Virus record (IMG/VR): IMGVR_UViG_3300037042_003997
Coordinates: 1-41,475 of that record
Length of the DNA: 41,475 bases
Source: a virus
Strand: one strand, 5' to 3'
Shown: positions 3,668 through 39,057 of the stretch, piece by piece
Layout of the letters: every line of letters starts with the position of its first letter
Position numbering within the stretch: the stretch's first letter is position 1
Notes under the pieces: model-generated
Told to the model about the DNA's origin: nothing
The model's database searches: none
What the model saw: only the letters and a program-made list of their open reading frames with translations
Made by a program: the position numbers and the translations under genes

Positions 3668-4429
3668 TTATTTTACCCATTTTGATTTTTTTAATTCCGA
3701 TATAGGATAAAATCCATCAGCATATTTATCGTAACCAGTTCCAAAAAAATTATTATTATTAACCATTTTTTGCCAATTATTATATTGTGTAGTATAATTC
3801 CATAGTTCGTCTTTATTTGTCATGTAACCTTTATTTTTAAGATATGCTCCAACCATACCTCCAGTTCTATCTGCACCGTGAGCACAATGAATTAAAGTAT
3901 TTCCTTTTGATAAAATATCGCTAGTTTTTTGTATTGACGTGGTGTAACCTTTACCTAATTTAAATCCACTATGTGAATTAATAAAATGGTAAGTACAGTC
4001 ATTTTCTTCACATATTTTTTTCTCAGTATCTGTAGATGTTTTAGTGTGTTTACCCATATGTTTTTCGTCATCACCACTCATTCTAATAATATTTTTTATT
4101 TTATATTTTTTAATCACAGAAGGTAATAAATCAGCGGTTATTTGTGCCGATCTCCAATTATTTAATCCATCAGGTATTTGATTAAAATTAAATTCTTTTA
4201 AATCTCCAATATTAACATCCTCTTTTTTATATTTTTTAACTTCAGACTCAAGTTTTTTTTTAAATTCCGTTTTATTTATGTTACCATCTTTAAAAGAACT
4301 AATTAAATTTTTAAATTTATCTGACACTAAATCATATAAATTAGATAATAATCCTTCTTTTATTTGTTCTTCATCATCTAATAAATTAACAATTTTTTTT
4401 AATTGTGATTCCGTTATTTTAATCTTCAT
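3668..4429 (-). CDS. dual-specificity/tyrosine phosphatase-like protein with N-terminal ITESQLK tag
   Basis: 253 aa from the ATG at 4427-4429. A longer reading back to 4552 would run through terminator copy A and into the end of the neighbouring gene, so I prefer this start. Residues 1-25 form a tag (MKIKITESQLKKIVNLL, then acidic). Residues 35-75 are lysine-rich and helical. From residue 80 there is a cysteine phosphatase domain: NWRSAQ at 91-96 resembles the RSAQ motif of DSP/Siw14-type phosphatases, and HCAHGADRTGG at 181-191 is the HCx5R catalytic loop with C182 and R188. The expected reaction is removal of phosphate from Tyr/Ser/Thr or a small phosphorylated molecule; substrate unknown. 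It has its own promoter-like motif and terminator, like a moron. The aspartate acid/base was not assigned with certainty. Confidence 0.82.
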   Translation of the reverse strand: MKIKITESQLKKIVNLLDDEEQIKEGLLSNLYDLVSDKFKNLISSFKDGNINKTEFKKKLESEVKKYKKEDVNIGDLKEFNFNQIPDGLNNWRSAQITADLLPSVIKKYKIKNIIRMSGDDEKHMGKHTKTSTDTEKKICEENDCTYHFINSHSGFKLGKGYTTSIQKTSDILSKGNTLIHCAHGADRTGGMVGAYLKNKGYMTNKDELWNYTTQYNNWQKMVNNNNFFGTGYDKYADGFYPISELKKSKWVK

Positions 4430-11557: not shown

Positions 11558-12250
11558 TTATTTATTGTACATGTCGGAATTTATAGTTGGCATTCCGTCA
11601 TCAAAAGATTTTTCAATATCCGATGAACTGTAATTTTCAATATCATCCGATGTTAAAACATATTCATTTTTTCCCGATTTTTCCATTTCAGGCATTTTAT
11701 CTTCAAAGAAATCTGATAATTTTTGTTTAAATGGCCCTGAGTCTAAAGATCTTAATTCTAATTTTTCTTCTGGTGTTTTAGGTCTGTAATTATCAACTTT
11801 GGTTTCAATTGCGTTTAATTTTTGAACTAATTGATCCATTTCACCTAATTTACTTTGAAGTGTTTCTAACTGTGAAAATAAGTTATTAAAATATTCTTCT
11901 TGTTTGTCTGACATTGTTTTTTGTGTGTCGATTAAATCAGTAATATCAATTTCTTCGGTTTCTTCTCCACCTTCTTCACTTTTAACCTCACCTTCAATAC
12001 CAATTTCTTCAACATCAGGATCATTCGCAACATCCACATTTTCAGCCGCGGGTGGTGTAGGTGGTGCGGGAACTGCGGGAACTGCGGGGGCTGCCGCTGC
12101 TGCCGGATCTGCCTCAGCACCTCCAGTCTCGGCACCAAAATCTCCAGGAATAGCTTCCGGTGGTGGAGGTAATGCCTCTTGTTCAAAGATGTAACTTGTA
12201 ATTTGGTTATATCTTTTAATTTCTTCTAAAATTTTTTTATCAATGCTCAT
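11558..12250 (-). CDS. acidic Ala/Pro-rich coiled-coil protein, unknown (possible scaffold or internal protein)
   Basis: 230 aa. Residues 1-25 form a helical start (MSIDKKILEEIKRYNQITSY). Residues about 27-75 are a low-complexity Ala/Pro/Gly linker, coded by a locally GC-rich stretch near 12040-12160. Residues 78-105 are very acidic, and about 110-155 look like a coiled coil (SQLETLQSKLGEMDQLVQKL). The C-terminus is acidic and disordered-looking. No enzyme motif is present. The acidic, helical, linker-rich make-up is like scaffold or core proteins of T4-like phages, but its position after baseplate genes would also fit a tail or fibre chaperone. I do not assign a function. It is the last gene of its unit. 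Confidence 0.7.
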   Translation of the reverse strand: MSIDKKILEEIKRYNQITSYIFEQEALPPPPEAIPGDFGAETGGAEADPAAAAAPAVPAVPAPPTPPAAENVDVANDPDVEEIGIEGEVKSEEGGEETEEIDITDLIDTQKTMSDKQEEYFNNLFSQLETLQSKLGEMDQLVQKLNAIETKVDNYRPKTPEEKLELRSLDSGPFKQKLSDFFEDKMPEMEKSGKNEYVLTSDDIENYSSSDIEKSFDDGMPTINSDMYNK

Positions 12251-27865: not shown

Positions 27866-28693
27866 TTAAAATTTAGTTTTCTTTCCTCCTCCAGTATGAT
27901 AAATATCTAATCCACTTTTATCATCAAAATGTTTTTTCATTGTTTGGACATTCTTTAAATCATCATCTGAAAAACCAATATATGGTGTAAAATAATTACT
28001 TATTTTGTTTTTCATAAATGCCTTTTCTTGAAGTCTTTGTGATAAGTTTCTTACATATTCTATAAATTGTTTCATAGCACTTACTTTTAATTCTTCAGGG
28101 TTCGCAGCAGAACCTTCACCAAAACTAACAGGGTGCCATTTACACATTTCTAAGTAAGTTCTTATAAGTTCATCATCAGACAAATCTTCTTCATCTGAAA
28201 TATCCCTATATTTTTTAAGATTTTTAACTATTTCTTCTTTATTTAAACCTTCCCTATTTTTTAATATTAAATTATATACCCCATTTTTTAATACACTCGG
28301 GGTGTGACCTCTTGCTGTGATGATCGAAAAAATTGACCCGTTATTAACCGCCTCAACAAAATCACTCCACGCAGGGCCTGTAGGTGCTTTCATTGCATCA
28401 ACTAAGAATTTTTTATCACCAGTAACTTTAAAGTCTCTAAATGCATCGTCATCAAACCCTACAATAGTGTGACCTTCATATTCAAAAGGATCTTTACCGA
28501 TTTCTGTCCTATATTCGGCAAAATCTTCTGTAGACATACCAACACTATTTCCGTCTTCATCTTTCAAATAAATTTTGGTTGGCATATACATTAAATTATC
28601 ATCCCAGTCAAAAGCATAATACTTCATCGTAGGTTTCATCTCCTCTTGTATTATCTCAGATAAAATCTGATTAACAAATTTTTTATAATTCAT
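27866..28693 (-). CDS. HAD-superfamily phosphatase-like protein with N-terminal tag
   Basis: 275 aa. Residues 1-18 (MNYKKFVNQILSEIIQEE) form a short helical, I/L-x-E-rich leader. Then the HAD motifs appear in order: motif I AFDWDDN with D29 and D31, motif II SIITARG with T127, a lysine near K204 (EELKVSAMKQ) and motif IV IGFSDDD with D244-D246. All catalytic residues of a working phosphohydrolase are present; the substrate is unknown. It is inserted between tail sheath and tail tube genes, with its own TATTTATT motif right at the start codon and the sheath terminator just upstream. Likely an accessory gene; the tag may direct packaging, which is inference. Confidence 0.83.
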   Translation of the reverse strand: MNYKKFVNQILSEIIQEEMKPTMKYYAFDWDDNLMYMPTKIYLKDEDGNSVGMSTEDFAEYRTEIGKDPFEYEGHTIVGFDDDAFRDFKVTGDKKFLVDAMKAPTGPAWSDFVEAVNNGSIFSIITARGHTPSVLKNGVYNLILKNREGLNKEEIVKNLKKYRDISDEEDLSDDELIRTYLEMCKWHPVSFGEGSAANPEELKVSAMKQFIEYVRNLSQRLQEKAFMKNKISNYFTPYIGFSDDDLKNVQTMKKHFDDKSGLDIYHTGGGKKTKF

Positions 28694-34006: not shown

Positions 34007-35776
34007 TTGGAAAATATACAAACACTATTAGAACACAAGGCTCTACAGATTCTCGACTCATATTCGGGGGCAAATAACTATATCCTATATCTTCAGAATA
34101 AAAAAGTAGTTTCTAAAAAATTCTACCCTACAAGATCGCAAGCGGATTATATAATAACTTATCATGATGTGGTTCCTAAAGTCGCAAGACGGTGGGTTGA
34201 GTTGGATTCTTATTTCGCCAAAAAATTTGCCGAAGAAAAATATCTTTTAGAAACTCCTGAAACAATATACATAGAAAAATTATTAGTCGAAAAAGAAAAA
34301 TCTTACCATGTATGGGGAAAATTTTTTGAGAAAGATAATCTTTCTGAATTTTGGGTTCCTAAATCTGCATTAATTAAAACACACAGAGTTGAAAAAGTTG
34401 AGATTGACTACACCAAATACAATCATAGACCACCATTAAATCACCAAAAAGAGGCCATTGAAAAGTTAGTAGGTTCTAAAAGATTTATTTTAGCCGATGA
34501 TATGGGTCTTGGTAAAACAACATCAACAATTATCGCGGCTTTAGAGACAGGTTCTAAAAAAATATTAATAGTATGTCCTGCGTCTTTAAAAATAAATTGG
34601 CAAAGAGAAATTGAAAATTATTCAGATAGAACCGTTTTTATTGCGGAAGGGAAAAAATTTTCAACTGATTCTGATTTTGTTATTATAAACTACGACATTT
34701 TAAAAAATTTCCACGATACAGACCCAAAAAAGAAAGATGAGTCATTATTAAGTCAAAGTAATTTTGATTTAGTTATATTAGATGAGGCCCACATGATCTC
34801 AAATGTTCAAGCACAAAGAACTAAATTAATTAACAGTTTTGTTAAAAAACTTAATAGGGTTTGGTTATTAACAGGAACACCAATGACATCAAGACCTATG
34901 AATTATTATAATCTTTTAAACATTATTGAAAGTCCTGTTGCTCAAAATTGGATGGCGTATGCAATACGTTACTGTCAAGGATATCAATTTATGGCCGGTA
35001 AAAGAAAAGTTTGGAATGTTACAGGTGCTTCTAATCTTGAGGAACTTAGAGAAAGAACATCTAAACAAATATTAAGAAGATTAAAAGAAGATGTTTTGGA
35101 TTTACCTGACAAAATTATTACACCTGTTTATTTAAGTTTGAAGTCCAAAGATTATGAAAATCTTATGGGGGAATACTATGATTGGTATGATAAAAACCCA
35201 GATGAGTCCTCGTCACTTACGGTTCAGTTTTCAAAACTAATGAAAGTTAGAAAAGTTATTGCGAATGAAAAAGTTAAACAAACAATTGAATTTACCGAAA
35301 ACATTTTAGAACAAGGAAAAAAAGTTATAATCTTTACAAACTTTACGGACACACTTCAAAGTATCTACCAACACTTTGGCAAAAAGGCGGTATATCTTGA
35401 CGGTAGTTGTTCGAACTCACAACGTCAACAATCTGTTGACCTATTCCAAAACGACGAAAAGATTCAAGTATTTGTTGGAAACTTAAAGGCCGCTGGAGTT
35501 GGTTTAACATTAACCGCAGCTGAGGTTGTAATAATGAATGACTTATCTTTTGTTCCCGCAGAACATGCACAGGCAGAAGATCGAGCGTATCGTTATGGTC
35601 AAAAATCAAATGTACTTGTTTACTACCCATTATATGAAAACACAATTGAAGGTGCCATATATGACATTCTAAATCGTAAAAAAGAAATTATCAGAACCGT
35701 AATGGGTGATGAACAACCTGAAAATACAGGAGATGTTGTTGAAGAAATAATGTCTTTGATAAATAAGACTAGATAG
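34007..35776 (+). CDS. SNF2-family helicase/ATPase
   Basis: 589 aa, starting with TTG at 34007 (MENIQTLLEHKALQ); a stop codon lies 12 nt upstream in frame, and AAAAGG precedes the start by about 7 nt. The N-terminal 140 residues are a lysine/aromatic-rich domain, then the two RecA-like lobes of SNF2 ATPases: Walker A DDMGLGKTTS at 164-173, DEAH at 259-262, LTGTP at 288-292, and late motifs including GVGLTLTAAE and QAEDRAYRYGQ. Such phage proteins resemble SMARCAL1-type annealing helicases and UvsW-like functions in fork remodelling. It is the first gene of a plus-strand island. Confidence 0.88.
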   Translation: MENIQTLLEHKALQILDSYSGANNYILYLQNKKVVSKKFYPTRSQADYIITYHDVVPKVARRWVELDSYFAKKFAEEKYLLETPETIYIEKLLVEKEKSYHVWGKFFEKDNLSEFWVPKSALIKTHRVEKVEIDYTKYNHRPPLNHQKEAIEKLVGSKRFILADDMGLGKTTSTIIAALETGSKKILIVCPASLKINWQREIENYSDRTVFIAEGKKFSTDSDFVIINYDILKNFHDTDPKKKDESLLSQSNFDLVILDEAHMISNVQAQRTKLINSFVKKLNRVWLLTGTPMTSRPMNYYNLLNIIESPVAQNWMAYAIRYCQGYQFMAGKRKVWNVTGASNLEELRERTSKQILRRLKEDVLDLPDKIITPVYLSLKSKDYENLMGEYYDWYDKNPDESSSLTVQFSKLMKVRKVIANEKVKQTIEFTENILEQGKKVIIFTNFTDTLQSIYQHFGKKAVYLDGSCSNSQRQQSVDLFQNDEKIQVFVGNLKAAGVGLTLTAAEVVIMNDLSFVPAEHAQAEDRAYRYGQKSNVLVYYPLYENTIEGAIYDILNRKKEIIRTVMGDEQPENTGDVVEEIMSLINKTR

Positions 35777-35779
35777 ATA

Positions 35780-35787
35780 TATTTATC
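35780..35787 (+). promoter_or_regulatory. TATTTATC promoter-like motif before SOD fusion gene
   Basis: The plus strand reads ATATATTTATCATTAATG: the core ends 4 nt before the start codon at 35792 and begins 3 nt after the SNF2 stop codon. Confidence 0.45.
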
Positions 35788-35791
35788 ATTA

Positions 35792-37900
35792 ATGAAAGCT
35801 TTAATAACCTTTGATGATACAAAATTTGTTAAGAAAGACAAAGAGTTGATTAACAAGTTTGTAAAATTTTTACAATCTGAATACCCTCTTAAAGATGATG
35901 TTACCATTAGTTTAATGGGTCATAGAACGGGTAAGATGTCTACAGGTGCCAGAACCAATGATTCGGAAATAAAAGTCTTAGCCAAAAATAGACTTAATAG
36001 AGATATCATGAGAACTTTAGCTCATGAATGGGTTCACGAACACCAAAGAAATGTTCTTAATAGAGAACACGGGCCTGATATAGGTGGTCAAAATGAAGAC
36101 GAAGCAAATGCATTTGCCGGCCAACTTGTTAAAAAATTTGAGAAAAAATATCCTCATCTTGAACCAAAAATGTATGAAATGAAATCAATAAATTCTAAAT
36201 TGGATTTATTGTCTGAACAAATATTGTTAACAGAAAAACAATCAATAGAAGAAACTCTTTTACTTGAGATGAAAAAAATTGGTATTGATAAACTACCTTA
36301 TTCATACTCATCTTTACAAAGATTTATCGATTCAAAAACCATGAATGTTCATTATAACAAACACTACAAAGGTTATGTTGATAAGTTGAATAAATCTATT
36401 AAGGACAAAAAGGGTGATATGGACTTAGAAGAAATTATTAGATCCATAAGTAAATTTGACGATAAGGTTAGAAATAATGCTGGTGGGGCATTTAACCACG
36501 CATTGTTTTGGAAAATGTTATCACCCAAAAAACAATTACCAAAAGGTGAGATTTTAAAAAAGATTACAAAAGATTTTGGTAATATTAAAAAAATGAAAGA
36601 TGAATTTAATGAAGTTGCAAAAGACAGATTTGGTTCAGGTTGGGCTTGGTTGTATTTAGGAAAAGACGGTAAATTAAAAATTATGTCAACTCCAAACCAA
36701 GACAACCCATTGATGAATGTTATTAAAAATGGGGGATATCCTTTATTAGGTCTTGATGTTTGGGAACACGCATATTATTTAAAGTATCAAAACAAAAGAG
36801 ATGAATATATAAAAAAGTTTTGGGATGCTGTTAATTGGGAATTTGTTGAGGAGTTATACTTGAGTAAAACAAAAAAAGACATTCAAAAAGAAAGTTTAAA
36901 GGAATCTCAAATAATAACTGAAAACAGAGGGTTCTCAAAAGTTCTTAATATACCAACCAAGACTATTGAGTCAATTTATTTAAGTGTATATCCACCTTGT
37001 GACGGAAGTAACAAAACAAATGGTTGTATAGGTATGATCAAAGACCCGAATTGTGAGACTGGATTGGGTGTTATTGGTGGAAATTATTCTGAAAAAAATT
37101 TTGGTGGTGTTAGTGATTGGTCAATTATTAATAGGTTTGACACAAATGGTAATGTTCATCAAAAAATATTAGAATTTTATAAAAATGACAAGGATCCTAC
37201 AAAAGGTCGTTTAGAAACTTGGATGAAAAAAAACGCACAAGATTTGTTTGGTAATGATGGTGAAAAAATTAAACCTTTAATTGACTTGAATTCAGATACA
37301 ATTAGAAGGGGTGGGGAAAATGAAAAGTATGCAATAGAGGTTTTAGAAAATGTGTTCGGAGACAGATTGGAATCAATTACACAAATGTGTTCGGGTGATC
37401 TAAGAGATAGGCACGATGGTCAAGATTTAGAGGCAAAGATTGATGGTAAAGAATATTTCTATCAAGTCAAACCTGTTAATTTTAAAATAGCTAGAATTGT
37501 AAATTCAGAAAGAGGTATGTACTATAAAATACCAATTGCTTTACCTGCCGACAGATACAAAGAGGATAAAGTAGATTTTTATATTTTTGTTGATGTCAGT
37601 AACGAAAAATATGCGATTTTCTACAATGAAAAAAAATATATTAGTTCAGAAGGTGGTCAGTACGGAGGTTTAAAATTTTACAAACCAAACATGTACTCAA
37701 CAAACGTTGATTTCACGACTTACAAACCAAGAAATAAACCAATAACACCAAAAATGGAGAGAGATAAAGATTCTCAAATTCAATACTATGAGGAAATGAT
37801 AAAGTATTATAGTGACAAATTGAAAGAACTTGGTCAATCTGAAGAAATTTCCGAAAGAAAAAAATACTATATGAACAAATTGGTAAAGTTGTTGAAATAA
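35792..37900 (+). CDS. three-domain fusion: zincin metallopeptidase-like, Mn/Fe superoxide dismutase, PD-(D/E)XK-like nuclease
   Basis: 702 aa. Residues 1-125: zincin-like domain with HEWVH (H78, E79, H82) and a later NEDEANAFA with E104, a good third ligand. Residues 160-358: a complete Mn/Fe superoxide dismutase. Ligands H187 (VHYNKHY), H236 (AGGAFNHALFW), D322 and H326 (LDVWEHAYYL) are all present, as are GSGWAWLYL and NQDNPLM (MnSOD-type glutamine at 303). Residues about 380-650: unknown to nuclease-like, with GGENEKYAIEVL, D545 in DGQDLEAK and Q558-V-K560, like the D...QxK core of PD-(D/E)XK nucleases. The end is a coiled coil. Linkers at 140-160 (SEQILLTEKQSIEETLLLE) and 366-380 (KESLKESQIITENR) are rich in I/L-x-E, the T4 prohead protease consensus. 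Lies between SNF2 and neck genes. Role unknown; the nuclease call is weak. Confidence 0.78.
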   Translation: MKALITFDDTKFVKKDKELINKFVKFLQSEYPLKDDVTISLMGHRTGKMSTGARTNDSEIKVLAKNRLNRDIMRTLAHEWVHEHQRNVLNREHGPDIGGQNEDEANAFAGQLVKKFEKKYPHLEPKMYEMKSINSKLDLLSEQILLTEKQSIEETLLLEMKKIGIDKLPYSYSSLQRFIDSKTMNVHYNKHYKGYVDKLNKSIKDKKGDMDLEEIIRSISKFDDKVRNNAGGAFNHALFWKMLSPKKQLPKGEILKKITKDFGNIKKMKDEFNEVAKDRFGSGWAWLYLGKDGKLKIMSTPNQDNPLMNVIKNGGYPLLGLDVWEHAYYLKYQNKRDEYIKKFWDAVNWEFVEELYLSKTKKDIQKESLKESQIITENRGFSKVLNIPTKTIESIYLSVYPPCDGSNKTNGCIGMIKDPNCETGLGVIGGNYSEKNFGGVSDWSIINRFDTNGNVHQKILEFYKNDKDPTKGRLETWMKKNAQDLFGNDGEKIKPLIDLNSDTIRRGGENEKYAIEVLENVFGDRLESITQMCSGDLRDRHDGQDLEAKIDGKEYFYQVKPVNFKIARIVNSERGMYYKIPIALPADRYKEDKVDFYIFVDVSNEKYAIFYNEKKYISSEGGQYGGLKFYKPNMYSTNVDFTTYKPRNKPITPKMERDKDSQIQYYEEMIKYYSDKLKELGQSEEISERKKYYMNKLVKLLK

Positions 37901-37929: not shown

Positions 37930-39057
37930 ATGGCAATTATTAGTGAACCAGAAAGAAGTAATTTCTACCAAAAAGTCAGACATCTTTTAGGTGCTCCTCT
38001 AAGGTCTGTGGAACTTGAGGATGAAATGATGGATACTTTATTAGAGTACTCTATTGATGATTATTCACAATATGTTCAAGATTGGTTAACAGAATCTCAA
38101 TGGACATCATTATATAATTTAAATTTAGATACTCAATCTTTAACAAAGGCATTTATAAGTAAGAGTTTGGATTTTGAAACTCGTTACACTTACGCTTATT
38201 CTAAAATTGTAGGGTTACAAGCCGGAGGAGATTGGGTAATTAAAAAAGACTTTGTTCAATTAGTACCAAACCAACAAATATATGAAATTCCCGCGGGTCG
38301 TGAGTTAAATGAAATTTTGTGGTTTACACCGGCAACTCTTAATAACCTAATGTTTGGGTTAGGTGGTTTTGCAGGTATTGGTACAGGAACTGGATTAGGA
38401 GGTGGAGGTGGTTTGGCACAAATTGGTAATATGGCGGGAAGTTATTATTTAACACCGGCATTTGACACACTACTTAGAATGCAAGAAGTAAACATACAAA
38501 GAAGAATGTTTGCGGGTGAATTAACTTATTATATCACCGCACTTCCTGGTGGTAAAAAGGCATTACACCTTTTAAACACGCCAGGTGGTAAATTTGATTT
38601 TGGAAATGCCGAATTGGCAAAAGGTCAAGTTTGGTATTGGTATTATGATACGACAGATGGAGATAGAGATCAGTGTTTAAAAGATAATCCTGATATTATA
38701 AAATTACCTTCTGATGTCCCGTTTGAAAGGATGAGTTGGTACGATTTAAACAATCCTGCTCAGGTTTGGGTTAGAAGATGGTTTACCGCTTATTGTAAAG
38801 AAACATTAGCAAGAGTTAGAGGTAAATTCAGTGGTAGTTTAAAAACTCCTGATGGGGATTTAACTATGGATTACACCGCATTGGCAACTGAAGCTAAGGA
38901 TGAAAAAAGTAAATTGATTGAGGAATTGATTGGCGCTGATGGTAGATTAACAAGACTTCGTCCCGAAAAAATTATGGAAAGAGAAGCACTACTTGCTGAA
39001 AATCTTAACAAACAATTGAAGTTTAGGGCGATGCCTAGACAAATATATGTAATTTAA
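37930..39057 (+). CDS. neck/head-completion protein, gp13-like
   Basis: 375 aa. The N-terminal EPERSNFYQKVRHLLGAPLR is followed by ELEDEMMDTLLEYSIDDYSQ, helices typical of head-tail connector adaptors. A glycine-rich turn (GIGTGTGLGGGGGLAQIGN) interrupts at about residues 155-173, and near residue 285 there is WYDLNNPAQVWVRRWFTAYC, then KETLARVRGKFSG, which I associate with the gp13-type neck proteins of T4-like phages (T4 gp13 is 309 aa). The C-terminus is helical. The gene is the third of the plus-strand run and is 3 nt upstream of a small unknown gene. Role as neck is by family resemblance and by the presence of gp14/gp15-like genes close by. Confidence 0.55.
   Translation: MAIISEPERSNFYQKVRHLLGAPLRSVELEDEMMDTLLEYSIDDYSQYVQDWLTESQWTSLYNLNLDTQSLTKAFISKSLDFETRYTYAYSKIVGLQAGGDWVIKKDFVQLVPNQQIYEIPAGRELNEILWFTPATLNNLMFGLGGFAGIGTGTGLGGGGGLAQIGNMAGSYYLTPAFDTLLRMQEVNIQRRMFAGELTYYITALPGGKKALHLLNTPGGKFDFGNAELAKGQVWYWYYDTTDGDRDQCLKDNPDIIKLPSDVPFERMSWYDLNNPAQVWVRRWFTAYCKETLARVRGKFSGSLKTPDGDLTMDYTALATEAKDEKSKLIEELIGADGRLTRLRPEKIMEREALLAENLNKQLKFRAMPRQIYVI

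Follow-up and report, generated by a model that had tools for sequence, protein, structure and literature searches.

The window analysed here, a 41,475-bp stretch of an IMG/VR virus record, contains a frame of 702 codons that encodes a protein of 702 amino acids and has no internal stops. The gene occupies a slot between a UvsW-type helicase gene and a conserved neck gene (Table 1); the latter, which we take to be T4 gp13-like, had no Pfam match. The window is a fragment without the head region, and the gp21 and capsid genes are absent from it.

Table 1. Features discussed in the text, in window coordinates. An arrow (↓) marks a predicted cut or the corresponding junction.
Feature	Position	Strand	Basis or remark
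Predicted 702-aa cargo polyprotein with N peptidase-like, SOD and PD-(D/E)XK-like modules	35792..37900	+	ORF, Pfam, structure models
Module N, residues 1-129, gluzincin-like metallopeptidase (predicted)	35792..36178	+	AF2, Foldseek, ends of free single-domain genes
Helical linker 1, residues 130-159, with four [LI]xE sites (E142, E148, E154, E159); predicted cut E159↓M160	36179..36268	+	motifs, conservation
SOD module, residues 160-360, Mn-type Fe/Mn superoxide dismutase	36269..36871	+	Pfam, PDB match, conserved ligands
Linker 2, residues 361-377, disordered in the prediction; two [LI]xE sites (E371, E377), the second with a predicted cut (E377↓N378)	36872..36922	+	
Module C1, residues 378-702, PD-(D/E)XK-type nuclease-like domain	36923..37897	+	AF2, Foldseek, invariant residues
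UvsW-type SNF2/DEAD helicase gene, upstream flank of the cargo slot	34007..35776	+	Pfam, synteny
Conserved neck gene, downstream flank of the cargo slot	37930..39057	+	synteny in relatives
TATTTAT, late-promoter-like motif, 12 nt upstream of the polyprotein start codon	35780..35786	+	
Gene with N-terminal tag (MKIKITESQLKKIV...), dual-specificity-phosphatase-like	3668..4429	-	PF00782, E 7.6e-6, below cut-off
Gene with N-terminal tag (MSIDKKILEEIKRYNQITSYIFE↓Q...), Pro/Ala-rich protein	11558..12250	-	
Gene with N-terminal tag (MNYKKFVNQILSE↓...); late motif upstream	27866..28693	-	conserved in G003

Pfam analysis of the 702-residue protein returned two Fe/Mn-SOD domains as the sole matches. When 50,697 phage records were searched by tblastn, the relatives recovered were essentially confined to the SOD part, and none spanned 80% of the protein. 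Relatives are encoded by 171 IMG/VR stretches, and among the best 80 of these the N+SOD+C fusion was found on tens of distinct contigs at 51-59% identity. This architecture is common in an uncultured phage group. Since the same fusion recurs on tens of distinct contigs, it is not an assembly error, and an assembly or frameshift artefact was ruled out. In one relative (L081/L152) the polyprotein frame is broken inside the SOD region into two ORFs, possibly by a sequencing error.

Modules of the 702-residue protein

The AF2 model of module N had a pLDDT of 87, and Foldseek matched it to M61, neutral protease, thermolysin, aureolysin and BepA with probabilities of 0.80-0.99, the best E value being only 0.01. 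The H78-E79-x-x-H82 motif and residues E102, D103 and E104 are identical in 57/57 relatives; in a wider set of 40 sequences, E102 is invariant and E104 is not. A distance of 20 residues, as between H82 and E102, is the spacing of thermolysin. Because of this invariance and spacing, the third zinc ligand is more probably E102 than E104. Module N is likely to fold as a gluzincin-like metallopeptidase, as predicted by the model, while its activity is inferred. No named peptidase family was reached above the cut-off. The sub-threshold matches (SprT-like, M78, DUF6055, DUF4344 and M76) are mostly to metallopeptidases and, because they stay sub-threshold, the module was filed as zincin-like without a family. 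An ImmA/IrrE identity is not claimed, as the M78 match was sub-threshold and the Foldseek match to IrrE (probability 0.35) was weaker than those to M61 and thermolysin. A bacterial origin was not supported either, since a scan of genome contigs yielded no relatives of the module. Module N also occurs alone, in ten distinct genes, which lack an N-terminal tag and whose ends lie no more than a few residues from residue 129. Because these free genes stop there, E129 was taken as the end of the module, which explains its invariance better than cleavage at E129.

The middle part of the protein is a complete Mn-type Fe/Mn-SOD. Both Pfam domains, Sod_Fe_N (PF00081, residues 165-244, E 2e-20) and Sod_Fe_C (PF02777, residues 250-354, E 3.6e-40), scored above their curated cut-offs, one with 136.6 bits vs 20.9 and the other with 73.5 bits vs 27. 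The best PDB match of the segment was 6gsc (E 1.1e-65), and bacterial Mn-SODs matched at E values of about 1e-64 to 1e-65. The metal ligands H187, H236, D322 and H326 (three His and one Asp) are identical in 57/57 relatives, as are H191, Y195, E325 and Q303, and the Mn-type Gln is kept within the sequence NQDNPL. Dismutase activity and oligomerisation are inferred. The segment shares with bacterial Fe/Mn SODs (PF00081/PF02777) the full-length two-domain fold, all ligands and the Mn-type Gln. Unlike them, it sits between two other enzymes with phi-x-E sites as its boundaries, and its gene lies in a virion/replication block. SOD genes are found as ordinary genes in other large phages, e.g., PA5oct and a Vibrio phage. 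Several phage-labelled records (OR850395, OR844989, OR846594 and others) contain intact bacterial-type SOD genes with 45-47% identity to the query; these records may be bacterial contigs.

Module C1 was modelled with a pLDDT of 84 and reached no Pfam family. Foldseek matched it to the PD-(D/E)XK homing endonuclease I-Ssp6803I with a probability of 1.00 (E 1.9e-3), to Hjc with up to 0.95, and to RecU with lower values. The residues E511, D545, Q558 and K560, which would form the catalytic E...D...(E/Q)xK set, are invariant in 24/24 relatives of the C module. This part probably folds as a PD-(D/E)XK nuclease; the fold is predicted by the model and catalysis is inferred. I-Ssp6803I and the Hjc resolvases, PD-(D/E)XK enzymes with QxK, share with C1 the fold and the D-x12-Q-x-K arrangement plus an upstream Glu, but C1 has large extra N- and C-terminal regions. 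In many relatives the nuclease is replaced by another module, C2, which ends in IELYWSNKGQRGCDEKRLSIRFRI (e.g., residues ~375-731 in L046); C2 matched no Pfam family and remains unidentified.

The sequence-only reading of this locus had proposed an uninterrupted 702-codon frame that fuses a zincin-like domain with an HExxH motif and E104, a complete Mn/Fe SOD with four metal ligands, and a nuclease-like domain with D545...Q558xK560. The frame held, as did the zincin-like domain (by model and fold search) and its HExxH motif; E104 as a ligand is probably wrong, E102 being preferred. The SOD claim was confirmed by Pfam, the PDB match and the 57/57 conservation. The nuclease-like domain was upheld by model and fold search, with the addition of E511, absent from that reading. 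Structure prediction showing that the N-part is not a peptidase or the C-part not a nuclease had been named as refuting, as had an assembly error joining separate genes; neither was borne out. The domain order, which was to be looked for in viral metagenomes, recurs in many IMG/VR contigs.

Linkers and predicted cut sites

The linkers carry the signature of the T4 prohead protease, L/I-x-E; the motif is observed and cleavage is inferred. Six of the ten [LI]xE sites of the window protein fall inside the 48 linker residues. The density of these sites is 10.0 per 100 aa in linkers vs 0.95 in domains, and it is higher in the linkers in 57/57 relatives. Composition-keeping shuffles gave 52.3 +/- 5.6 sites for linker 1, where 121 were observed (38 unique sequences), and 13.7 +/- 3.0 for linker 2, where 50 were observed (27 unique sequences). 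Since shuffled linkers contain far fewer sites, the excess is not due to linker composition. The Glu at the junction is in a phi-x-E context in all cases: 57/57 before the SOD (E159), 13/13 before C1 and 12/12 before C2. E377 is invariant in 13 aligned rows, and outside the Glu-centred motifs the linkers vary freely. The invariance of E159 could, possibly, be partly structural. Linker 1 is predicted as a single long helix. In the AF2 model residues 354-378 are disordered, and the order of C1 begins at the second predicted cut. A tag score matrix placed its best site in a linker in 46/57 relatives; it was rejected as sole proof because, in absolute terms, the scores did not exceed those of control proteins. 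An internal translation start at M160 was also considered. All fused relatives keep the ATG at this position, but the candidate was rejected: L149 keeps the preceding Glu and not the Met (..SLIEE↓AKKIGIEKL), and inspection by eye showed no Shine-Dalgarno-like stretch.

Where C1 has a gene of its own, the product begins with a tag whose end corresponds to the end of the linker in the fused protein (L149, MKYIFTESQLDILKNKILINE↓DFT..; also L134, L162, L165, L167 and L168). ORFs that begin with the SOD have a tag at the same junction, as in L119 (..EFLLLE↓MKKIGIEKL) and L149. A fourth module, C4, is a gene of its own in L134 and L207 and part of a fusion in L149, where its homology begins at the E↓S junction. 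The small module C5 has a free form, MKIIITE↓SSRD.., and a fused form, ..TINE↓SVDH.., in L160. The position between uvsW and the neck gene is occupied by N+SOD, by N+SOD followed by C1, C2 or C3, and by N+SOD+C5+C1. Other contents of the slot are SOD+C1'+C1, SOD+C4 followed by a free C1, C4+C1, and C4+C2. This pattern suggests that modules have been shuffled, the tag serving as the joint. A putative HNH-type endonuclease gene, identified by eye, lies at 2344-3003 of L134 beside the free C4 and C1 genes in the same slot; it is perhaps a mobilising element.

Prohead protease and a late-promoter-like motif

The T4 gp21 protease cleaves after L/I-X-E, and T4 internal proteins have N-terminal CTS propeptides of 10-19 residues that target them to the head (PMC9026906). 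For mature head proteins, propeptide lengths lie between 7 and 65 residues, and targeting and processing by the CTS are separable (PMC9026906). A gp21 homologue (PF03420, E ~1e-23) was found in three large relatives, in a gp20-gp21-gp22-gp23-like order. The capsid proteins of all three contain the sequence ..NQAS(F/Y)LINE↓A.. near residue 60, and a comparable site, ..QIVSE↓A.., is present in that of a Flavobacterium isolate. By capsid protein, the nearest isolates include a Microcystis phage as well as Flavobacterium phages. Among solved SODs, the closest are what we take to be Sphingobacterium enzymes, and together with the capsid-protein neighbours they hint at a possible Bacteroidota host. 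From the IMG sample series we take the habitat to be freshwater.

The motif TATTTAT lies within 30 nt upstream of the polyprotein gene in 45/57 relatives, compared with a background of 1.0%. In the window it is found upstream of the genes for gp25 (3490), sheath (32111) and tube (27754), as well as at 35780 and 37912. In one relative, G003 (272,576 bp), it occurs 11-42 nt upstream of the portal, gp21, gp22, terminase, sheath, tube and neck genes; the gp21 gene of G003 lies at 184046-184774. It precedes 94/277 genes of G003 in sense and 36 in antisense, with an intragenic rate of 1.6%; as TATTTAT reads the same backwards, the strand control gave no information. Tagged genes of G003 have the motif more often than untagged ones (33/58 vs 61/219, p 7e-5), and this association was not significant in the partial contigs G004 and G007. 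The motif is also present before some other genes, e.g., the helicase gene. TATTTAT may be the late promoter of this phage group; its promoter role is inferred.

Tags are not limited to the cargo slot (Table 1). At the N-terminus, 58/251 proteins of G003 fit a simple tag rule, compared with 14-16 at inner offsets, and at least five different bodies share a near-identical MKR(I/T)xRLxExDLxRIVxRVIxE tag. In the partial contigs this excess is only weak (8 vs 4-5 in G004 and 14 vs 5-7 in G007). Pfam analysis of 20 tagged G003 proteins found few functions. Inspection of G003 (L085-L098) showed tens of unrelated small proteins with similar N-terminal tags, densest at 215,000-272,576; examples are MKRIVRLTESDLARIVRRVINE↓E, MKELIRHILKE↓E and MNLQEQIRRILKE↓E. 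As inferred from the tags, the tagged small proteins of G003 are likely a large repertoire of head-packaged effectors.

Interpretation

On balance we favour, with modest confidence, the view that the 702-residue protein is a head-packaged cargo polyprotein with internal targeting/cleavage tags that is cut by gp21 and injected with the DNA. The computation supports the folds, the conservation of catalytic residues, the clustering and conservation of cut sites, the equivalence of linkers and tags, the presence of gp21 in relatives, and the late-like motif. The inferred parts of this view are that the chain is cut, packaged and injected, that its enzymes are active, and that they have targets in the host. 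The polyprotein would be a late product, like those of the structural genes. Ahead of the SOD and the nuclease, the linkers would be internal copies of capsid-targeting/propeptide tags, of the same kind that sits at the N-termini of single cargo proteins in these phages. The whole chain would be taken into the prohead core, on the assumption that an internal tag can act on the entire chain. There, a T4 gp21-type prohead protease would recognise L/I-x-E and cut behind the Glu, the sites including at least E159↓M160 and E377↓N378. The zinc peptidase, the Mn-SOD and the PD-(D/E)XK nuclease would be freed inside the capsid and then injected with the genome. The peptidase and the nuclease may attack host targets, and the SOD may remove superoxide in the freshly infected cell or protect the DNA in the particle. 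Several points count against this view: the window fragment itself lacks gp21 and the capsid gene, the tag scores stay within the control range, the tag excess is weak in the partial contigs, and E159 could be invariant in part for structural reasons. In addition, module N lacks an N-terminal tag both as a single gene and in the fusion, which leaves its route into the head unexplained. The suggestion, made from sequence alone, of a polyprotein or injected virion component is supported by the linker sites, the free tagged modules, gp21 in relatives and the late-like motif, with processing and injection inferred. The accompanying idea that the SOD protects the phage or the host from an oxidative burst stays a hypothesis, and its site of action could be the capsid or the host.

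An alternative is that the protein is an uncleaved three-domain enzyme that acts in the infected cell in an auxiliary metabolic or anti-stress role, its linkers being ordinary flexible helices. The fusion is very common in the relatives, no cleavage has been demonstrated, and SOD is an ordinary gene in large phages such as PA5oct and the Vibrio phage. However, this explanation does not account for the excess of [LI]xE over composition-preserving shuffles, for the conservation of mainly a Glu-centred motif in otherwise variable linkers, for the match between fused linkers and the N-terminal tags of free modules, or for the late-promoter-like motif before the gene, and we consider it unlikely.

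Two further explanations appear very unlikely. The chain could be processed by its own N-terminal zincin, either within the head or once injected; a zincin-like module does head the chain, and self-processing by the peptidase has been suggested for other phage multidomain proteins, the polyvalent proteins (PMC5512222). Nevertheless, SOD+C1 (L119) and SOD+C4 (L149) lack module N and keep the same Glu-bounded linkers, the free modules bear the same tags, and the motif fits both the specificity of T4 gp21 and the capsid-protein site of these phages. The linkers could also be docking or localisation helices (e.g., for binding to the scaffold core or a membrane) in virion components that are not processed. 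The prediction of linker 1 as one long helix and the separability of targeting and processing in the T4 CTS are compatible with this idea, which, however, leaves unexplained the invariant Glu exactly at the module starts and the match to the capsid-protein site.

The cargo-polyprotein reading can be compared with two known systems. As in the system of T4 internal head proteins (IPI, IPII, IPIII and Alt), a gp21 homologue belongs to a T4-type set of head genes, here seen in the three large relatives; also shared are L/I-x-E sites ending in Glu, short tags that precede cargo of diverse kinds, and a variable cargo repertoire. The gp21 cleavage motif L/I-X-E of T4-type cargo is present in the linkers. 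The T4-type tag at the protein's own N-terminus is absent: the polyprotein has no phi-x-E-ended tag there, its tags being internal. Unlike in T4, the putative tags are also internal and join up to four modules per chain, the cargo consists of SOD, peptidase and nuclease-like enzymes, and module N is untagged. The polyvalent proteins (Iyer et al. 2017, PMC5512222) are also multidomain, combine unlike activities, are predicted to be injected and often include a zincin-like peptidase. The 702-residue protein likewise has several unlike enzymatic domains in one phage polypeptide, with injection with the DNA inferred. In contrast to the polyvalent proteins, in which processing is ascribed to the zincin, processing is here ascribed to the prohead protease, and the linkers match capsid-targeting tags. 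SOD is mentioned zero times in that paper. The ingredients (CTS cargo in T4, polyvalent proteins and viral SODs) are already known. In the open-access literature searched, which excluded subscription papers, no report was found of internal capsid-targeting tags joining several enzymes, of prohead-protease polyproteins, or of a phage SOD in virions or as head cargo.

A bolder reading, for which we see roughly equal grounds for and against, is that a freshwater T4-like phage lineage has a modular capsid-delivery system in which modules are freed in the head by the prohead protease. The modules would be interchangeable, each placed after a short L/I-x-E-ended tag, and kept as single tagged genes (tens in one genome) or as polyproteins with internal tags in a fixed slot; an antioxidant enzyme would be part of the multi-enzyme payload. 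In that case, the head-maturation protease of a tailed phage would do what polyprotein proteases do in RNA viruses, and one chain would yield several separate delivered enzymes. Superoxide dismutase would then join the known injected or packaged phage payloads, a hint that superoxide is important early in infection, within its first minutes, or in water exposed to sunlight. There would also be a readable tag for predicting head-packaged effectors from sequence in uncultured phages.

As a minor observation, a tagged protein of 407 aa (MRDLIKKILKE↓A...) is encoded on the minus strand at 1269-2492 of L167. It contains the sequence HELKH and is possibly another packaged metallopeptidase.
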